Shown: in pieces, positions 5,420-14,282 of the stretch
Layout of the letters: each line of letters starts with the position of its first letter
Numbering within the stretch: the first letter of the stretch is position 1
Assembly (NCBI RefSeq): GCF_009177065.1
Contig: NZ_WEZF01000007.1
Coordinates: 1 to 64,000 of the forward strand
Source: Tautonia marina
GTDB taxonomy: Bacteria > Planctomycetota > Planctomycetia > Isosphaerales > Isosphaeraceae
Length of the DNA stretch: 64,000 nt
Direction: 5' to 3'
Program-made: the position numbers and the translations under genes
Notes under the pieces: model-generated
Told to the model about the DNA's origin: nothing
The model's database searches: none
Seen by the model: only the letters and a program-made list of their open reading frames with translations

Positions 5420-5540
5420 TACTCGCTCCTTTATGCTTCGGAACCGTGTTTGATCCAACCCGCCGCGATTCATCGTCCAGGCATTCGCAACCACGCCGAA
5501 ATCAACCGACCGAATGTTTTGGGGCTCCCAAAAAATTGAA

Positions 5541-5569: not shown

Positions 5570-5611
5570 TGAATTCGAGTGATTCGATCTGAGGAGAAAG
5601 GATTGATTGCC

Positions 5612-6631
5612 GTGGCTCGTGATCCGCGAAGGGCATTGACCAGTTTCACTGTTGCATGGAATGGGCGGCAGGGAAGGAGTCGGGGCGAAAATCGCTCTCC
5701 GGTCGTGCGGGCCGCACTGATTGCAATGGTTCTGGCGGTATCGGGATGCGGAGGACGGGCGGAATCCAGCAGCCGAGGCGCGGAACCTTTTACGGGATCA
5801 GGACCGATCCGGGTGGTTTGCTCGACCGGCATGGTGGGCGAAGTGGTCGAGCGGGTCGGGGGCGATCGGGTCGAGGTGACGGTCTTGATGGGGGCGGGGG
5901 TAGACCCTCATTTATACAAGCCGTCACCGGGAGACATCATTGCCCTGTCAGGTGCCGACATGATCGTGTTTTCCGGGTTGCACCTTGAAGGCAAGATGGG
6001 CGAGGTGTTCGCAAGGCTTGGGCGGAGCAAGCCCTCGGTCCCCCTGGCCGACGGGATCGCGTCGGGCGAGTTGCTCGAAACTAGCGGAGGGCAGGTGGAC
6101 CCGCATGTCTGGTTCGACGTGAGGTTGTGGGCCGACGTGGTCAGCGTGGCCCGAGACGCCCTGGCCGGCTTCGACCCATCCTTTGCCTCGGAGTATGCTC
6201 GGAACGCCGAACGCTATCGAGACGAGTTGATCCGGCTCGACGAGGAGGTCCGGGAGAAGATCGTGGCGATTCCCGAATCGCAACGGTTGCTGGTCACGGC
6301 CCACGATGCCTTCGGCTATTTCGGGCGGGCCTACGGAATCGAGGTCGAAGCGATTCAGGGGATCAGTACCGAGAGTGAGGCCGGTGTGCATGAGATCAAC
6401 GCGCTGGTGAATTTGCTGGTCGATCGAGGGGTGCCGGCGGTGTTCGTCGAGGCGAGCGTCAGCGATCGCAACGTTCGGGCACTGGTCGAGGGCTGTGCCG
6501 CGCGGGGCCATCGGGTCCGGATTGGGGGAGAGCTGTTTTCCGATTCGATGGGAGCGCCGGGTACTCCTGAAGGAACCTATGCGGGCATGGTCCGACACAA
6601 CGTGTCAACAATCACGGAGGCGTTGCGATGA
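5612..6631 (+). CDS. troA: TroA-like Zn/Mn-binding lipoprotein of an ABC importer
   Basis: The periplasmic metal-capturing subunit of a cluster A-I (TroA/ZnuA/PsaA) importer. Starting from GTG 5612 (AGGAGAAAGG 10 bases upstream) it has 339 residues, with a lipobox AVSGC ending at Cys46; the region before the lipobox is unusually long, so a later start at GTG 5705 is possible. The four expected ligands are His100 (VDPHLYKPS), His165 (DPHVWFD), His231 (TAHDAFGYF) and Asp311 (LFSDSMG). Their spacing of 65, 66 and 80 residues equals that of Treponema TroA (H68, H133, H199, D279). The His-rich loop of ZnuA is absent, which fits Mn/Zn TroA-type proteins better. The stop overlaps the ATPase start (ATGA). 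Confidence 0.9.
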
Positions 6632-7464
6632 ATTCCGCATCGTTCCTCGATCAGACCGACGCGGCCGAGGGTGCGACCACGACCTCGGACTCGGCCCCCC
6701 CTCCCCCGGTGCTGGACGTCCACGACGTGACGGTCGCCTATCAACGGAAGCCGGTCCTTTGGGATGTCGATCTGACGATCGAAGGGCCCTGTCTGGCCGG
6801 GATTGTCGGGCCGAATGGTGCAGGAAAGAGCACGCTGATCAAGGCGATTCTTGGTCTCGTGCCGATGGCGAGCGGTTCGGTGCAACTGCTTGGCAAGCGG
6901 GTGTCGGCCCAGCGGCGTCGGATCGGCTACGTGCCGCAGCGTGAAAGCGTGGACTGGGAGTTCCCGGTCACGGTGCTCGACGTGGTGTTGATGGGAACTT
7001 ATGGGCAGCTCGGCTGGTTCCACAGACCGGGCAAGGCCGAACAGACCTGGGCGCAGGAGTGCCTGGACCGGGTCGGCCTGCTGCATCTGGCCGATCGTCA
7101 GATTGGGCAGCTCTCCGGGGGGCAGCAACAGCGGACCTTCCTGGCCCGAGCGCTGGCCCAGCGGGCGGAGGTCTACTTCATGGATGAGCCGATGGCCGGA
7201 GTTGATGCCGCGACCGAGGCTGTTATCTTCGATTTGCTCAGGGACCTTCGCGCCGCGGGGAAGACGGTCTTCGTCGTGCATCACGACCTGAGGACCGTCC
7301 CCGAATATTTTGACTACACCATTCTCTTAAATATGCGGCTGATTGCTCATGGACCAACCGCCGCGACCTTCACGACCGAGAACCTGCGCAAGACCTACGG
7401 CGGTCGGCTGGCGATTCTCGAAGCGGCGGGGGCGGCGGTCCAGGCCAGGGAACGAAGTCAGTGA
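6628..7464 (+). CDS. troB: TroB-like metal ABC transporter ATPase
   Basis: 278 residues. It energises Zn/Mn uptake through the two permeases downstream. Walker [10 protein letters not shown] is at 61-69, the Q-loop at [16 protein letters not shown], the ABC signature LSGGQQQR at 162-169, Walker B VYFMDEP at 182-188 and the switch His in VVHHDLRTV. The [15 protein letters not shown] segment is characteristic of metal-importer ATPases. The N-terminal 28 residues are an extra acidic, proline-rich extension. It is coupled to troA by a 4-bp overlap. Downstream, an antisense gene separates it from the permeases, an unusual break in this operon type. Confidence 0.92.
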
Positions 7465-7481: not shown

Positions 7482-8315
7482 TCACCCGGCCTCGCGGCCG
7501 ATCCAGTTGCGGGCGATCGCGGCAAGACGTGGGTGGCGCGCCGCCCGGTCGTGAAGCCAACGGGCCAGGTTCAGCGCTCGAGGGCCGATTTGCCGGTACG
7601 AGTCGAGGCGATGGGTCAGGTCGGCGATCTGCTGGGCGTAGCCGAAGATCTCGAAGTTGTCGGTCTGGTTGACGGGCACACTCAAGGGGGCGATCAGGTG
7701 GGCGTCTTCGTCTCGGACATAGACGCGATTGATTCCGTCAAAGAGCGTGAATTGGTAACGGGCGGCCGAGAGTGTCGGCTCCCAGCGCTCGGGGGCATAC
7801 GATTCAACGATCAGAACCCGAGGACGCCAACGTTCCCAGTCGTGCCCAATCACGACTTCGTATTCATGCGACTCGACATCGATCTTGAGAAAATCGATTG
7901 TCTGACCAGCGGGAACGTGAGCCTCGCAGACCGCGGCGAGGGTGGTGGCGGGCAGTTCGATCTCACGGAGATCCTCGGGTCGGGCGCCGAACCATCCGGT
8001 GATCAAGTTTCGATCGACCGACGGATGCGCCGCCCCTTCCGCCGTGTAGAGGCGAAGCGTTCCTGCGCGATCCGAGATGGCCAGGTTCAGATTGATGTCG
8101 TTTGGCCGATCCTCACACAGGCGAGCGAAGGGGGCGGGGTCGGGCTCAATGTTGATCCCTCGCCAGCCAAGGTTCGAGAAATGCTTGGTGACCGAACCGT
8201 CGACCGGATCGTACGCACCGACATCGATGAAAAAGCCGGTCGATTGATCGGCAAAGGCGCGACGGAGCAGGACATCTTCAAAATTTCCGGCGTAGGAGAT
8301 CATCCGCGACAGCAT
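7482..8315 (-). CDS. FkbM-family methyltransferase
   Basis: 277 residues, soluble. FkbM proteins are SAM-dependent O-methyltransferases often acting on sugars or secondary metabolites. The start of the domain (FFIDVGAYDPVDGSVTKHF, SAM motif I), GWRGINIEPDPAPFARL (acidic ribose-binding residue), LNLAISDRAGTLRLY and IDFLKIDVESHEYEVVIGHDW are diagnostic. The ATG at 8315 follows AGGAGG. A C-terminal basic helix (about 235-277, WLHDRAARHPRLAAIARNWIG) is additional. The gene lies antisense between troB and troC, 17 bp from the troB stop, and its product has no evident link to metal transport, so it may be a later insertion. Confidence 0.85.
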   Translation of the reverse strand: MLSRMISYAGNFEDVLLRRAFADQSTGFFIDVGAYDPVDGSVTKHFSNLGWRGINIEPDPAPFARLCEDRPNDINLNLAISDRAGTLRLYTAEGAAHPSVDRNLITGWFGARPEDLREIELPATTLAAVCEAHVPAGQTIDFLKIDVESHEYEVVIGHDWERWRPRVLIVESYAPERWEPTLSAARYQFTLFDGINRVYVRDEDAHLIAPLSVPVNQTDNFEIFGYAQQIADLTHRLDSYRQIGPRALNLARWLHDRAARHPRLAAIARNWIGREAG

Positions 8316-8452
8316 GCGGTACAACCCTCCTGGCAAGGATTGAGCGTGGGGAACGTCCTCTCAGCGCGCGGACGATCGCAAGGCTGTTGTCTAGCACGAG
8401 CCCCGGAAGGGGTCAATGCGAACCCCAGACGATGGGGGTGGGAGCGTTGCTC

Positions 8453-9742
8453 ATGACTCCCTCGTTTCTGACGTACAACACGCTGATTGTCTTGCTCGGC
8501 ACTGGCCTGCTGGGGGCGAATGCCGGGCTTGTGGGTAGCTTCGCCGTCTTGCGAAGGCGATCGTTGACGGGAGACGCCCTGGCGCATGCGGCCCTGCCGG
8601 GGTTGGCGCTGGCGTTTCTGGTGGTCGGGCAGCGGAACTTGCCGGCGATGCTGGCGGGGGCCCTGGTTTCGGGTCTGCTGGGCGTGGCGGTGATCTCGGG
8701 TTTGCGATCGAAAACGCGGGTGAAGGAAGACGCGGCGATCGGCATTGTCCTGAGCGTTTTCTTCGGCGCGGGGGTGGTGCTGAGCCGGATCGTCCAGAAT
8801 ACGCCGGGGGTCGGCAGCAAAGCGGGGCTCGATTCGTATATTCTGGGTAAGACGGCGGGGATCATCCGGCAAGACGTGTTCATTATTGGCGGTGTCTCGC
8901 TGGTCAGTCTGCTCCTGATTCTGCTGGCGTACAAGGAATTCAAGCTGACGGTGTTCGACCCCGACTTTGCTCGGGTGCAAGGCTGGCCGGTCTTGCGGCT
9001 TGATTTGCTCTTGATGGGTTTGATCGCCCTGGCGGTCGTCTTCGGCTTGCCGATGGTGGGTGTGGTCTTGATGGCGGCCTTGTTGATCTTGCCGGGGGCA
9101 GCGGCGCGGTTCTGGACCGACCGACTCGGCCCGTTGCTCGTGCTGGCCACGGTGTTCGGGCTGTCGATCGGGTTGATCGGCACGGCGCTGAGTGCTCGAT
9201 ATGCGGGGATGCCGGCCGGTCCGATCATCGTGCTGGTGGGGGCGGGGGTGTTTCTGCTCTCGGTGCTGGTCGCGCCCAAGCGAGGGGTACTCGGCCGGGC
9301 GGTGGCGGCCTGGAGGTTCCGGCGATCGCTCGATGATCGGGCGATGCTTCGCCGGCTGTACGATCTGGTCGAGCCCGACCTGCCGAGCGTTCGAGCAATC
9401 AACACCGCGGAAGAACTCAGTCGGAACGGCACGCACCGGCGACGACGCAGGGCGATTCTGGCTCGCCTGGTTCGCCAGGGGGCGCTTCGTGTGGAGCGTG
9501 ATTCGGGGGGGATCCTGATGACCCTGACCGATGAGGGATTGCGACGGGCCAGGGTCGTGGCCCGAGATCAACGGCTCTGGGAGCAGTTCTTGCTGCACGC
9601 TCCGGAACTGGCGGGGACGATGGCTGACCTGTCTCAGGAAACGGTGGAGGTGCTGCCGGCCGATCTCATCGCCGAGCTGGAGCAAGGGCTTCGAGACACC
9701 GGCCGATTGCCCGAGCTTGAGCGGAGGGAGCCGGCACGATGA
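8453..9742 (+). CDS. troC: TroC-like permease with a DtxR-like C-terminal domain
   Basis: 429 residues. Residues 1 to about 285 form an ABC-3 family metal permease with eight or nine hydrophobic segments; GDALAHAALPGLALAF and PMVGVVLMAALLILPGAAARFW are family signatures. From about 300 a soluble domain follows that resembles a whole DtxR/MntR repressor: a winged helix (RAILARLVRQGALRVERDSG, LTDEGLRRA) then a dimerisation helix (RLWEQFLL). Aligned with DtxR, the ligand positions are Q373, E377, D392, E396, E399 and V400, so three histidines are replaced. ATG 8453 is preceded by GGGAG. The stop overlaps troD (ATGA). Confidence 0.88.
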   Translation: MTPSFLTYNTLIVLLGTGLLGANAGLVGSFAVLRRRSLTGDALAHAALPGLALAFLVVGQRNLPAMLAGALVSGLLGVAVISGLRSKTRVKEDAAIGIVLSVFFGAGVVLSRIVQNTPGVGSKAGLDSYILGKTAGIIRQDVFIIGGVSLVSLLLILLAYKEFKLTVFDPDFARVQGWPVLRLDLLLMGLIALAVVFGLPMVGVVLMAALLILPGAAARFWTDRLGPLLVLATVFGLSIGLIGTALSARYAGMPAGPIIVLVGAGVFLLSVLVAPKRGVLGRAVAAWRFRRSLDDRAMLRRLYDLVEPDLPSVRAINTAEELSRNGTHRRRRRAILARLVRQGALRVERDSGGILMTLTDEGLRRARVVARDQRLWEQFLLHAPELAGTMADLSQETVEVLPADLIAELEQGLRDTGRLPELERREPAR

Positions 9743-11139
9743 ACGAGTCGTCTGAATCCTTGACACGTCCGGGGTGGATGTCGGGACGACGGGGGACCAT
9801 CCTCCCACTGCTGGCCGTTTTGGTGCCGAGCGGATGGGCCCTGGCGGTGAGCGACGAGATCGGCCGCTGGACGATCGTGCTGGGTGTGCTGGCGAGTGTG
9901 CCGTGTGCGATTCTGGGCTGTTACCTCGTGCTCCGGCAGTTGAGCCTGCTGGGAGACGCGATCAGCCACGCGGTCTTGCCGGGGATTGCGCTGGGATTCT
10001 TGCTGAGCGGCCAGTTGATCGGCCCGGCGATTGTGATCGGGGCGATGGTGGTCGGCATCCTGACGGCGGTGTTGACCCAGTTGCTCAGTAGACTTGGCAA
10101 GGTGCCGGAAGATGCGAGCCTGGGAGTGGTCTTCACCTCCTTGTTTGCGGCGGGGGTGTTGCTGATCACCCAAGCGGCGAGCGATGTGGACCTCGACGCT
10201 GGCTGCGTCTTGTACGGGCTGATTGAGCTGGCCCCGCTGGAAAGTACGCCGATCGGCGGGATTGAGGTGCCCCGGTCGTTCTGGGCGCTCGGAATGGTCG
10301 CCCTGGTGACACTTGGGTTCGTGACCTTGCTGTGGAAAGAGCTGTTGCTCGTTTCGTTCGACGCCCCGCTGGCGACGGCGGTGGGGATCAACGCAACGGT
10401 GATCCATTACGCCTTGATGGCGATGGTGGCCGGGGCGACGGTGGCGGCGTTTGAGGCAGTCGGCTCGATTCTGGTCGTGGCAATGCTGATCGTACCGGCG
10501 GCCACGGCCCATCTCCTCAGCAATCGGCTGCCGAAGATGATGCTGGCGGCCTCGGGGGTGGCAGTGCTGGCCTCGGCGCTCGGGTATCGCGGAGCAGTGG
10601 CCTTGAATTCGAGCGTGGCGGGCATGATGGCGGTTGTGGCGGGCAGCTTGTTCGCGGTGGCCGTGATTCTTGCACCCAACCAGGGGATGCTGGCCCGAGT
10701 CATCACGCGGCTTCGGCTGTCGCTGCGGATCGCCCGAGAGGACACCCTTGCCCGGCTTTATCGGGCCGAGGAGCACGCGCCGGAGTCTCCCTCGCCGGCC
10801 GGGCCTGAGGCCCCCGCGGCGACCTCAATCGCGGATCGATGGGTCGAGGTCCTTGCCGTCGGGCAATTGCGGCGAGGGGAATTCGTCCGCGCTTCGGAGA
10901 CGGGCGAGCTCACCCTGACCGATCGAGGACGGGCGGAGGCGAGCGAGCTGGTCCGCGCTCACCGGCTCTGGGAGTCGTATTTGAGCACGCACTTCGACCT
11001 GCCCCCCGACCATCTACACGACCCAGCCGAGCGCCTGGAGCACTTCATCGGCCCCGGCCTCCGCGCCGAGCTGGACGCCGCACTTGAGGCTCCCGCCGCC
11101 GATCCGCACGGCCGGATCATCCCCCCCGAGCAACCCTGA
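9739..11139 (+). CDS. troD: TroD-like permease with an intact DtxR-like C-terminal domain
   Basis: 466 residues. Residues 1 to about 310 are a second ABC-3 permease (GDAISHAVLPGIALGF, SILVVAMLIVPAATAHLL). Residues about 330-466 resemble DtxR: a winged-helix remnant (VGQLRRGEFVRASETGELTLTDRG) and the metal-binding dimerisation domain. H408, E412, H427, E431, E434 and H435 fall at the spacing of DtxR H79, E83, H98, C102, E105 and H106, and the tail DPHGRIIP matches the DPHG-x-IP end of that domain. The domain should face the cytoplasm, where it could sense metal and gate the transporter. No free DtxR/MntR regulator gene is visible nearby. Coupled to troC by ATGA. Confidence 0.9.
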   Translation: MNESSESLTRPGWMSGRRGTILPLLAVLVPSGWALAVSDEIGRWTIVLGVLASVPCAILGCYLVLRQLSLLGDAISHAVLPGIALGFLLSGQLIGPAIVIGAMVVGILTAVLTQLLSRLGKVPEDASLGVVFTSLFAAGVLLITQAASDVDLDAGCVLYGLIELAPLESTPIGGIEVPRSFWALGMVALVTLGFVTLLWKELLLVSFDAPLATAVGINATVIHYALMAMVAGATVAAFEAVGSILVVAMLIVPAATAHLLSNRLPKMMLAASGVAVLASALGYRGAVALNSSVAGMMAVVAGSLFAVAVILAPNQGMLARVITRLRLSLRIAREDTLARLYRAEEHAPESPSPAGPEAPAATSIADRWVEVLAVGQLRRGEFVRASETGELTLTDRGRAEASELVRAHRLWESYLSTHFDLPPDHLHDPAERLEHFIGPGLRAELDAALEAPAADPHGRIIPPEQP

Positions 11140-11391: not shown

Positions 11392-12810
11392 ATGCGACGC
11401 AACCGGACAGCGACGGGAGGAGCATGGGTCGCGGCCCTGGCAGCGGTCCTGGTCGGCTCGACCGGCGAGGCCCAGGCCGATCAGGTCAAGATCCGAGGGG
11501 GCGGAACGCTTCACGGTGCAGTCGTACCGATCGAGGATCGTCCAGGGTACGTCGAGATCTACACGGCGACCGCGTCTCGGCCGTATGTGTTTCGGCGCGA
11601 TCAGATTGAGCAGATTGTTCCTGAAGCGTCTCCGATGGACGACTACCTGAAGCGCCGCCAGACGATTGAGGACAGCGCCGACGCCCATTTCGAGCTGGGG
11701 CTCTGGTGCGAGGAGCAAGGGCTGTCGGGTCCGGCCCTGGTGCATCATGGTCGAGCCGTCGAGCTGGACGAGCATCACGCCCTGGCCCAGAAGAAGCTCG
11801 GGCGGGTCTTTTTCGACGGACGCTGGATCACCTACGACGAGCGTCGGCAACTGCAAGGCCTGGTCAAGCATGGCGGCCGATGGGTCACTCCGGAAGCGAA
11901 GGAAGACCTGAACGAACAGCAGCGGATGACGCAGTCTCAGGAGGCCTGGGCCCGTCGAATCGACCTGCTGGTGAAGACGTTTTTGGAAGGAGCCCCCGCC
12001 GATCGGGCCGAGGCCGAGCAGCAGCTCCGGCAGATCAATGATCCGGATGCCGTGGTCCCTCTGGTCAACCGGCTTGGTCGGCAAGGGGTGGAGCTGAGGC
12101 TGATTCTGGCGCAGCTCCTGGGAACCATTCAGGACCCGATGGCCGACTCGGGCCTGGTGCATCTGCTGGTTCGGGAAGAGGATCGACAGGTCCGGCTGAC
12201 GATGCTGAACGAGCTGGCCCGGCGCCAGGAGCCGACGGTCGTTCCGAAGTTGATTCGAGAACTGAGCAAGCCGGACCCCGACCGCGTGGGTCGAGCCGCC
12301 TGGGCCCTGGCGGGTCTGGGGGCCACCGAAGCGGTGCCGAAGCTAATTCCGGCCCTGGTGAGCGTGCAGAAACGGGTCGAGACTGTGCTGGTTCCGAGTG
12401 AGCCGGTCGGGGGAGGCATGGGGATGGGGGTGAACTTCGGCGCCTCGGGAGGTCCGGCCTTCGGCTTCGGCAGCGGCCCGAGCATCCCGGTGCTGACGGG
12501 GCCGGCCGTGGCTCCCGGGGCGATTGCCTTTGGCGCCCAGGCCGTCCCCATTTTCCAGTACCGCGGCCAGGGGACCGGCGTGGTTGTTGGGAATGTCGGT
12601 GGTGTGACCGCACCCGTGCCGGCCCCTCCGGTTCCTCGGCAAGTGGTTCGCCCGTACCAGCACCGCAACGTCGAGGTCCTGGCCGCCCTGGAGCGACTGA
12701 CCGGCGAAAATCTGGGATACGATGTCTCAGCCTGGAACCGCTGGCTGCGGACCGAGTTCCGCCCTCCGGCCGAGGAGGAGCGGCCCGCTCGGCTCGTTCC
12801 CCAGCCCTGA
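11392..12810 (+). CDS. Secreted protein with HEAT-like repeats
   Basis: 472 residues. A signal peptide (about 1-29, ending GEAQA) is followed by a short beta domain with EIYTATASRPYVFRRDQIEQI, then a helical region with TPR-like packing (AHFELGLWCEEQGLSGPALVHHGRAVELD) and HEAT-like repeats (about 200-325: DAVVPLVNRLG, MADSGLVHLLVREEDRQVRLTMLNEL, TVVPKLIREL, EAVPKLIPAL). A glycine-rich linker (about 340-400) leads to a C-terminal piece with ENLGYDVSAWNRWLRTEF, a motif often seen at the end of planctomycete HEAT proteins. Such proteins are probably periplasmic scaffolds; the partner is unknown. Confidence 0.75.
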   Translation: MRRNRTATGGAWVAALAAVLVGSTGEAQADQVKIRGGGTLHGAVVPIEDRPGYVEIYTATASRPYVFRRDQIEQIVPEASPMDDYLKRRQTIEDSADAHFELGLWCEEQGLSGPALVHHGRAVELDEHHALAQKKLGRVFFDGRWITYDERRQLQGLVKHGGRWVTPEAKEDLNEQQRMTQSQEAWARRIDLLVKTFLEGAPADRAEAEQQLRQINDPDAVVPLVNRLGRQGVELRLILAQLLGTIQDPMADSGLVHLLVREEDRQVRLTMLNELARRQEPTVVPKLIRELSKPDPDRVGRAAWALAGLGATEAVPKLIPALVSVQKRVETVLVPSEPVGGGMGMGVNFGASGGPAFGFGSGPSIPVLTGPAVAPGAIAFGAQAVPIFQYRGQGTGVVVGNVGGVTAPVPAPPVPRQVVRPYQHRNVEVLAALERLTGENLGYDVSAWNRWLRTEFRPPAEEERPARLVPQP

Positions 12811-12950
12811 TCGGATCGGGATGGGGGACGGCTCCCAATCATCGCTCCTTTGGATCGTAGCGTCTGGCTTCGGTGGCGTTGGTGGATGCTCGCCGGTGAT
12901 GAGCCGTCGCACGGACTTCCCACAAGGGACCGACTCATGCGCCGACCTGA

Positions 12951-14282
12951 ATGATGACTGATTCATCGATTTCGCACGGTGATCGCCCGGATCGTCCCCA
13001 TGTCGTAATCCTCGGGGCGGGGTTTGCCGGTCTGGCAGCCATGAAGGTGCTTGGCGGCAAGGCGGTGGACGTGACGGTCATCGACCGGACCAACCACCAC
13101 CTGTTTCAGCCGTTGCTCTATCAGGTGGCCACGGCGGCCTTGAATCCGGCGGACATCGCCATGCCGATCCGTCGGATTGTGAGACGATCGAAGAACATTC
13201 GCGTCCTTATGGGAGAGGTCCAGTCGATCGATCCGGAGCGTCGGGTCGTGCGGCTGGATCACGGCGAAATTCCCTACGATTTCCTGATCGTCGCAACCGG
13301 CGCAGGGCATTCGTACTTCGGTCACGACGAGTGGGAAAAGGATGCCCCTGGGCTCAAGAGCATCGAGGATGCGCTGGAAATCCGTCGCCGGGTGCTCTCG
13401 GCGTTTGAGGTGGCCGAGCGGGAATCGGACCCGAACCGTCGCCAAGCTGCGCTGACCTTTGCCATCATCGGGGCGGGGCCAACGGGGGTGGAGCTGGCGG
13501 GGACGCTCTCGGAGGTCGCCCGGAAAACGCTCGCCCGAGACTTTCGGCGGATCGATCCGACTCAGGCCCGCATCCTCTTGCTGGAGGGAGGGCCTCGGGT
13601 GCTGGCGGCCTACCCGGAAGAACTGTCTGAATCGGCCCGCAAGCAACTGGAACAGCTCGGGGTCGAGGTTCGACTCAACAGCAGGGTCACGCACATCGAT
13701 CCCGAAGGAGTGAACATTGGTGACGAGCGGATCGAGGCCCGCACGGTGATCTGGGCCGCAGGGGTGGCCGCCTCTCCCCTGGCAACGGGCCTCGGAGCGC
13801 CGTTGGATAAGGCGGGGCGGGTGAAGGTCGAACCAGACCTGACGATTCCCGGCCATGCCGAGGTGTTTGTGGTCGGCGACCTGATGGCCAAATTCCAGGA
13901 TGGCGAGATGGTTCCCGGAGTCGCCCCGGCCGCCATGCAAGCGGGGCGATATGCTGCAAAAAGTCTTCTTCAACAGATCGCGGGAAAACCCCGGAAACCG
14001 TTCCATTATGTCGATAAAGGGTTACTGGCAACGATCGGGCGCGCCTCGGCGGTGGCCGATCTGCGGGGCTTGACGTTTTCCGGATTACCGGCCTGGCTCC
14101 TCTGGCTTTTTGTGCATCTTTTCTTTCTGATCGGGTTCCGGAACCGCTTGCTCGTGATGATTCAGTGGGCCTATTCGTATCTGACCTACGACCGAGGAGC
14201 CCGGCTGATCACCACGACCTGGCATGGTCTGACCCAGATGCGACCCGAGACGAACGGCTCCGAGTCTCACCGGTCGTCCTGA
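12951..14282 (+). CDS. ndh: Type II NADH:quinone oxidoreductase (NDH-2)
   Basis: 443 residues. NDH-2 passes electrons from NADH through FAD to the quinone pool without pumping protons. The FAD-binding motif VVILGAGFAGLAAMKVL starts near residue 20, the NADH-binding Rossmann motif AIIGAGPTGVELAGTLSEV is near 170, and EVFVVGDLMA near 305 is the second FAD contact. NHHLFQPLLYQVATAALNPADIA is the classic NDH-2 quinone-site region. The C-terminus carries a hydrophobic patch (LPAWLLWLFVHLFFLIGFRN) for membrane attachment. Two ATG codons in tandem (12951, 12954) make the start uncertain by one residue. Confidence 0.92.
   Translation: MMTDSSISHGDRPDRPHVVILGAGFAGLAAMKVLGGKAVDVTVIDRTNHHLFQPLLYQVATAALNPADIAMPIRRIVRRSKNIRVLMGEVQSIDPERRVVRLDHGEIPYDFLIVATGAGHSYFGHDEWEKDAPGLKSIEDALEIRRRVLSAFEVAERESDPNRRQAALTFAIIGAGPTGVELAGTLSEVARKTLARDFRRIDPTQARILLLEGGPRVLAAYPEELSESARKQLEQLGVEVRLNSRVTHIDPEGVNIGDERIEARTVIWAAGVAASPLATGLGAPLDKAGRVKVEPDLTIPGHAEVFVVGDLMAKFQDGEMVPGVAPAAMQAGRYAAKSLLQQIAGKPRKPFHYVDKGLLATIGRASAVADLRGLTFSGLPAWLLWLFVHLFFLIGFRNRLLVMIQWAYSYLTYDRGARLITTTWHGLTQMRPETNGSESHRSS

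Follow-up and report, generated by a model that had tools for sequence, protein, structure and literature searches.

Paired DtxR-like tails, one intact and one degenerate, as possible metal sensors on the permeases of a planctomycete Tro-type importer

We found that both permeases of a Tro-type metal importer in Tautonia marina end in a DtxR-like tail, and that TroD keeps a complete metal site and TroC a degenerate one. Judging from sequence comparisons and predicted structures, we think it moderately probable that these tails are cytoplasmic metal sensors built into the importer, with the metal-loaded TroD tail stalling transport and the TroC tail serving as a pseudo-sensor partner. Throughout, the window is the whole 64,000-nucleotide stretch of T. 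marina DNA that we analyzed (contig NZ_WEZF01000007.1, positions 1 to 64,000), and coordinates are positions within it.

Results

The tro operon begins with troA (5579–6631, + strand; start codon uncertain), which encodes a periplasmic metal-binding protein (PF01297, E 9e-77) whose best PDB match is TroA of Treponema pallidum (1toa, E 2e-80), and continues with troB (6628–7464, +), which encodes an ABC ATPase (PF00005, E 4e-29) with matches to NCBIfam Mn/Fe ABC ATPase families. The permeases are encoded by troC (8453–9742, +) and troD (9739–11139, +). Both match PF00950 across the membrane part (E 3e-65 for TroC and 2e-48 for TroD), and their AF2 models (pLDDT 92.8 and 89.9) have the fold of PsaC from Streptococcus pneumoniae (7kyp; Z 32.0 for TroC and 32.5 for TroD), as is characteristic of ABC-3 permeases (TroCD/PsaC/ZnuB). 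PsaBC and ZnuBC share this permease fold, and we know of no regulatory tails on them. A gene for an FkbM-family methyltransferase (7482–8336, –) splits troB from troC and probably forces troCD to use a promoter of its own; the insertion is shared with the congeneric loci L012 and L014 and was not found in L013. On the 3' side of troD lie genes for a HEAT-repeat protein and an NADH dehydrogenase-like protein (11392–14282), an order that L012 and L013 share.

In the AF2 models of both proteins, the C-terminal ~150 residues past the membrane part form a DtxR-family domain. The TroD tail (aa 317–466; 10687–11136, +) has the DtxR fold (Z 17.1, rmsd 2.3 Å over 133 aa to DtxR 2qq9) and is joined to the permease in the model by a short connector and one continuous helix. 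PF02742 matches aa 394–462 (E 2e-20, 72.9 bits; cut-off 27), and the tail matches DtxR/MntR-type regulators among PDB sequences at up to E 1.4e-13. The original prediction had placed six TroD ligands at the exact spacing of DtxR, and this held: H408, E412, H427, E431, E434 and H435 each equal the DtxR number plus 329. Their codons, together with that of the fusion-specific W411, span 10960–11043 (+), and a tail of this composition would contain such a six-residue motif by chance with a probability of about 2e-5. With PF02742 over its cut-off and all ligands present, TroD therefore has the defining features of a DtxR/MntR metal-binding and dimerization domain. A candidate ligand in helix 1, D335 (10741–10743, +), aligns with M10 of DtxR and D8 of MntR. 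Conservation across 103 TroD tails is close to complete at position 10 (Asp in 100) and at H79 (101), E83 (100), H98 (100), E105 (103) and H106 (103). In the AF2 model, aa 347–363 (10777–10827, +) form a disordered loop in place of HTH helix 2. At L026 and L030, the TroD tails are longer (about 226 residues) and extend beyond the DtxR part, perhaps as an SH3/FeoA-like domain.

The TroC tail (aa 279–429; 9287–9739, +) is modeled with a winged helix and aligns with DtxR at Z 9.6 and rmsd 4.4 Å over 134 aa; the stretch corresponding to the metal helix alpha5 is not helical in the AF2 model. With two ligands lost, PF02742 reaches only E 0.03 and 14.7 bits, under the cut-off of 27, and matches to DtxR/MntR-type regulators among PDB sequences reach only E 0.007. 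AF2 thus folds both tails as the DtxR-type winged helix and dimerization domain that had been proposed for them, although the winged helix of TroD is incomplete at helix 2. Q373, E377, D392, E396, E399 and V400 of TroC each equal the DtxR number plus 294, as the prediction had it, but its count of three lost histidines must be lowered to two: Asp is usual at the D392 position (80 of 89 TroC tails), so D392 is not a lost histidine. Q373 and V400 replace the two ligand histidines, and the real derived losses are H79 to Q and H106 to V. Most TroC tails end, in the alignment, in a conserved P-x-SPH, a possible extra metal ligand, which is missing from the window's TroC.

To place this asymmetry among relatives, we searched 393 planctomycete genomes, together with nearer relatives, fetched 120 loci, and classed the 104 with paired TroC and TroD by DtxR positions 79, 83, 105 and 106. 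Asymmetric ligand loss, as predicted, was found: TroC is degenerate and TroD intact at 15 of the 104 loci, and TroD degenerate with TroC intact at 0. These are not 15 events, as related loci are not independent; on a tree of the TroC permease domain, TroC degenerated at least 4 times on well-supported branches and 8 times by parsimony. The asymmetry of the original prediction is therefore recurrent, but both sites are intact at 59 of the 104 loci; this is the usual planctomycete state, and the one-sided arrangement arose from it in some lineages. Point degeneration hits TroC, whereas loss of the whole tail hits either subunit: an intact TroD accompanies a tail-less TroC at 11 loci and a short TroC tail at 1, and an intact TroC accompanies a TroD without a tail at 6 and with a winged helix only at 4. 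Ligand loss falling at random on either subunit had been named as a result that would speak against the sensor; it is absent for point changes and present for whole tails. Neither subunit has an intact sensor at 8 of the 104 loci (both tails degenerate at 3; neither an intact sensor nor a full tail at 5), where about 6 would be expected from independent losses, and across the 104 paired loci losses in TroC and TroD show no statistical tendency to avoid each other. We thus rejected a requirement for an intact sensor in one subunit or the other; some lineages can do without the function. At L085:61-2643 and L107:3471-5909, TroC, a DtxR-like tail and TroD lie in one open frame each.

As for the asymmetry itself, it is possible, if rather doubtful, that the degenerate TroC tail is a decaying relic without a role. 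Loss of the whole tail from TroC beside an intact TroD is common, as counted above, and the TroC HTH drifts nearly freely between congeners. The former metal and dimerization region, however, is still constrained. Between the window and three congeners, dN/dS in the metal region is 0.06–0.28 for the degenerate TroC and 0.01–0.24 for TroD, and in the HTH region it is 0.28–1.08 for TroC and 0.21–0.87 for TroD, above the metal region every time; all values come from the simple Nei-Gojobori method, applied to short regions whose synonymous divergence is high. Against two of the congeners, the TroC HTH reaches 0.67 and 1.08; for TroD aa 345–379, the values are 0.55 and 0.87 against two congeners and 0.21 against the closest. 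The constraint suggests that TroC's former metal region is still folded and offers a useful surface. Also at odds with a relic, W376 is kept, and the motif RLWExFL...DLSxESVxExLPP recurs among relatives of the window's TroC.

To separate drift of the DNA-reading HTH from overall divergence, we compared HTH identity among pairs of sequences binned by the identity of their metal regions. In the 0.7–0.8 bin, HTH identity is 0.62 for soluble DtxR and 0.65 for YtgCR of Chlamydiaceae, from only 20 soluble and 8 Chlamydiaceae sequences; Chlamydiaceae serve as the positive control because YtgR is a reported repressor there. In the same bin, it is 0.33 for planctomycete TroD, 0.34 for planctomycete TroC, 0.30 for Verrucomicrobiota, 0.27 for Bacteroidota, and 0.30 for both the single-permease Saprospirales and environmental Chlamydiota, which puts every fused group except Chlamydiaceae YtgCR at background (0.27–0.34). 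When all planctomycete pairs are realigned, the HTHs of the fused TroC and TroD tails score no better than shuffled sequence and those of the relatives' soluble DtxR do, although HTH alignments are inherently poor in a degenerated region. The TroC and TroD tails thus lack the conserved HTH of DtxR-family repressors, with identity at background and helix 2 missing from the TroD model. PF01325 has no match in TroC or TroD; the Pfam HTH model misses Chlamydiaceae YtgCR too, so its silence alone proves nothing, and we rejected it as a test of DNA binding. A complementary split, in which TroC reads DNA and TroD senses metal, was suggested by the two AF2 models and rejected because the TroC HTH drifts and is not conserved across relatives.

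The absence of a separate repressor gene nearby, which had been remarked on, holds for the window, but a single soluble DtxR with an HTH is encoded on another contig of the genome (L132; G000:C6:177.6-178.0 kb), whose closest NCBIfam model is MntR, under its cut-off. In relatives, a separate DtxR-family gene with a recognizable HTH lies in the fetched ~5 kb flanks of tro at 47 of 120 loci; some of these regulators are short MntR-like proteins with modest scores (39–65 bits). Upstream of the window's troA, 46 bp before the annotated start, the palindrome TTTTGGGGCTCCCAAAA (5517–5533, no strand), a perfect 7+7 inverted repeat, is a putative operator. About a third of planctomycete tro loci have a palindrome close to TTTTTGGnnnnCCAAAAA: of 102 relatives, 31 have a match to TTTTTGGn(2-6)CCAAAAA (3 mismatches or fewer) upstream of troA, whereas shuffling in two-base blocks predicts about 4.4. 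It offers a putative target for a separate DtxR-family regulator. We rejected autoregulation of soluble DtxR through the tro palindrome, as these genes have no good upstream site except for a 2-mismatch site in L136, and elsewhere in the genome the palindrome stands beside genes with no evident connection to metals.

PF01325 matches over its cut-off in 28 of 30 fusion-bearing planctomycete genomes, each time in other frames than the fusion. A soluble DtxR that shares the dimerization domain therefore coexists with the fusion in most of these genomes, and the membrane-bound tail could titrate it through mixed dimers, relaying the status of the transporter to transcription. We regard this as very improbable: the fusion occurs without a PF01325 match over cut-off in genomes G029 and G242.

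The closest precedent for the fusion is chlamydial YtgCR (CT069, of the YtgABCD iron importer), which, according to a review, is reported for Chlamydia trachomatis to be cleaved into the iron-dependent repressor YtgR, with orthologous permease-DtxR fusions noted in 11 phyla (PMC5599777). Functional work on such a fusion thus exists, contrary to what had been supposed. YtgCR and the window's proteins share a Tro-type permease, a C-terminal DtxR-like domain, the same ligand set and the same type of operon. They differ in that YtgABCD has a tail on YtgC only and the window's importer on both permeases, and in that the HTH of YtgCR is conserved within Chlamydiaceae whereas those of the planctomycete tails are not at matched divergence (0.33–0.34 vs 0.65), and separate repressors exist. 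A tail that is similarly cleaved off to repress the tro operon in a metal-dependent way seems unlikely to us for the planctomycete importers. The TroC winged helix is predicted to be intact with a basic helix, and in Chlamydiota, where PF01325 is over cut-off in 0 of 12 genomes, the YtgC tail is the sole PF02742 protein in 12 of 12; against repression stand the background HTH identity of planctomycetes and other fused groups, the missing helix 2 in the TroD model, the two high dN/dS values of the TroC HTH, and the separate regulators beside tro.

Keeping the metal residues and the fold without the DNA-reading residues fits any metal-binding role, and the tail might be a metal-accepting exit site, a chaperone or an assembly domain that aids import or stability and does not inhibit. 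This too we consider improbable. The conserved residues match those of an allosteric regulator, down to the helix-1 position, where bridging by metal moves the domains of DtxR/MntR; moreover, T. pallidum TroCD work without tails, and both tails are absent from 2 surveyed loci.

In a wider set chosen by similarity to TroC-type tails, which says little on tailed TroD outside Planctomycetota, the tail is on TroC only in Verrucomicrobiota, Bacteroidota, Chlamydiota and a few other groups and on a single permease in Saprospirales and kin; at two acidobacterial loci, TroC has a full tail and TroD a short one. We rejected the idea that tailed TroD is exclusive to Planctomycetota, as full-length TroD matches occur in 9 of 194 genomes from the phylum of a Verrucomicrobia MAG. 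Position 82 (IdeR numbering; W411 in TroD, W376 in TroC) is Trp in 209 of 212 fused tails (TroD 103/103, TroC 86/89, Chlamydiota 20/20) and in 0 of 19 true soluble DtxR; these counts use only sets gathered without a Trp criterion, a Trp-containing search pattern having biased another set of contigs. Several degenerate TroC tails retain this Trp, which may lie where the tail touches its partner tail, the permease or the ATPase. Among soluble proteins, Trp 82 occurs in a single permease-less one at L145:1301-2338, which has the HRLWE motif and an SH3/FeoA-like extension and resembles a detached TroD tail.

Discussion

Because the HTH is not conserved, a direct effect of the tails on transport fits better than gene repression. 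From the homology to PsaC and the arginine-rich exit, we infer that the tails would lie on the cytoplasmic side. When cytoplasmic metal is high, it would bind the DtxR-type site of the TroD tail; the sensed metal would most likely be Mn2+, possibly Fe2+ or Zn2+. The tails of TroC and TroD, which derive from a dimerizing domain, would then repack against each other or against the ATPases and hold the transporter in its resting state, a trans-inhibition by a repressor-type domain on the permease in which the TroC tail, its own site lost, would act as the pseudo-sensor partner. Metal binding by the tails, their pairing and the inhibition of transport are steps that we infer, and TroD H435, E434, D335 and W411 are the residues that single themselves out for the sensor idea. 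Mn2+ is probably the sensed metal because position 102 is Glu, as is usual in Mn-type regulators, where DtxR has Cys; the best relative of TroA, from T. pallidum, is also called a zinc-binding protein.

The T. pallidum TroABCD system has the closest solved relative of TroA and the same operon layout. There, TroR, the DtxR-type regulator, is a protein of its own and the permeases are tail-less, in contrast to the sensor domains fused to the window's permeases. The TroD tail shares the fold, dimerization domain and metal ligands of DtxR/MntR/IdeR; unlike these regulators, the TroD and TroC tails are membrane-tethered, have no C-terminal SH3 domain and carry Trp at position 82, and their HTH is incomplete (TroD) or drifting. 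In another kind of importer, the domain of ModC is akin to the repressor ModE. Trans-inhibition by C-terminal dimerizing domains has precedent in the ABC importers MetNI and ModABC, where it is exerted by the substrates methionine and molybdate/tungstate (PMC10710835). Like these, the window's importer is predicted to have a cytoplasmic, dimerizing, substrate-sensing C-terminal domain; the sensor of MetNI/ModABC is homodimeric and on the ATPase, whereas the one proposed here would be heteromeric, on the permeases and for a transition metal. This difference in placement counts against trans-inhibition, as do the paired loci without an intact sensor (8 of 104) and the only studied relative, YtgCR, which is reported to work by repressor release (PMC5599777).

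The permease-DtxR fusion is itself already known from YtgCR, and our searches of the open-licence literature found no paper on the planctomycete proteins. What seems new is the double-tailed importer with its recurrent sensor/pseudo-sensor asymmetry and, on the sequence comparisons, the evidence that DNA binding is not maintained in most fused tails.

So far, Chlamydia has led permease-DtxR fusions to be interpreted as repressors stored in the membrane. Our comparison suggests that, outside Chlamydiaceae, selection acts on the metal site and not on the DNA-reading part, as would fit a direct, fast feedback on uptake. With slightly less than even confidence, we propose that there is a widespread class of transition-metal ABC importers gated by a domain that was once a DNA-reading repressor; in Planctomycetota the sensor would span both permeases, as sensor and pseudo-sensor in some lineages, and DNA binding by YtgR would be a special case. 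If true, transition-metal trans-inhibition would be the work of a transcription factor domain turned transporter brake.
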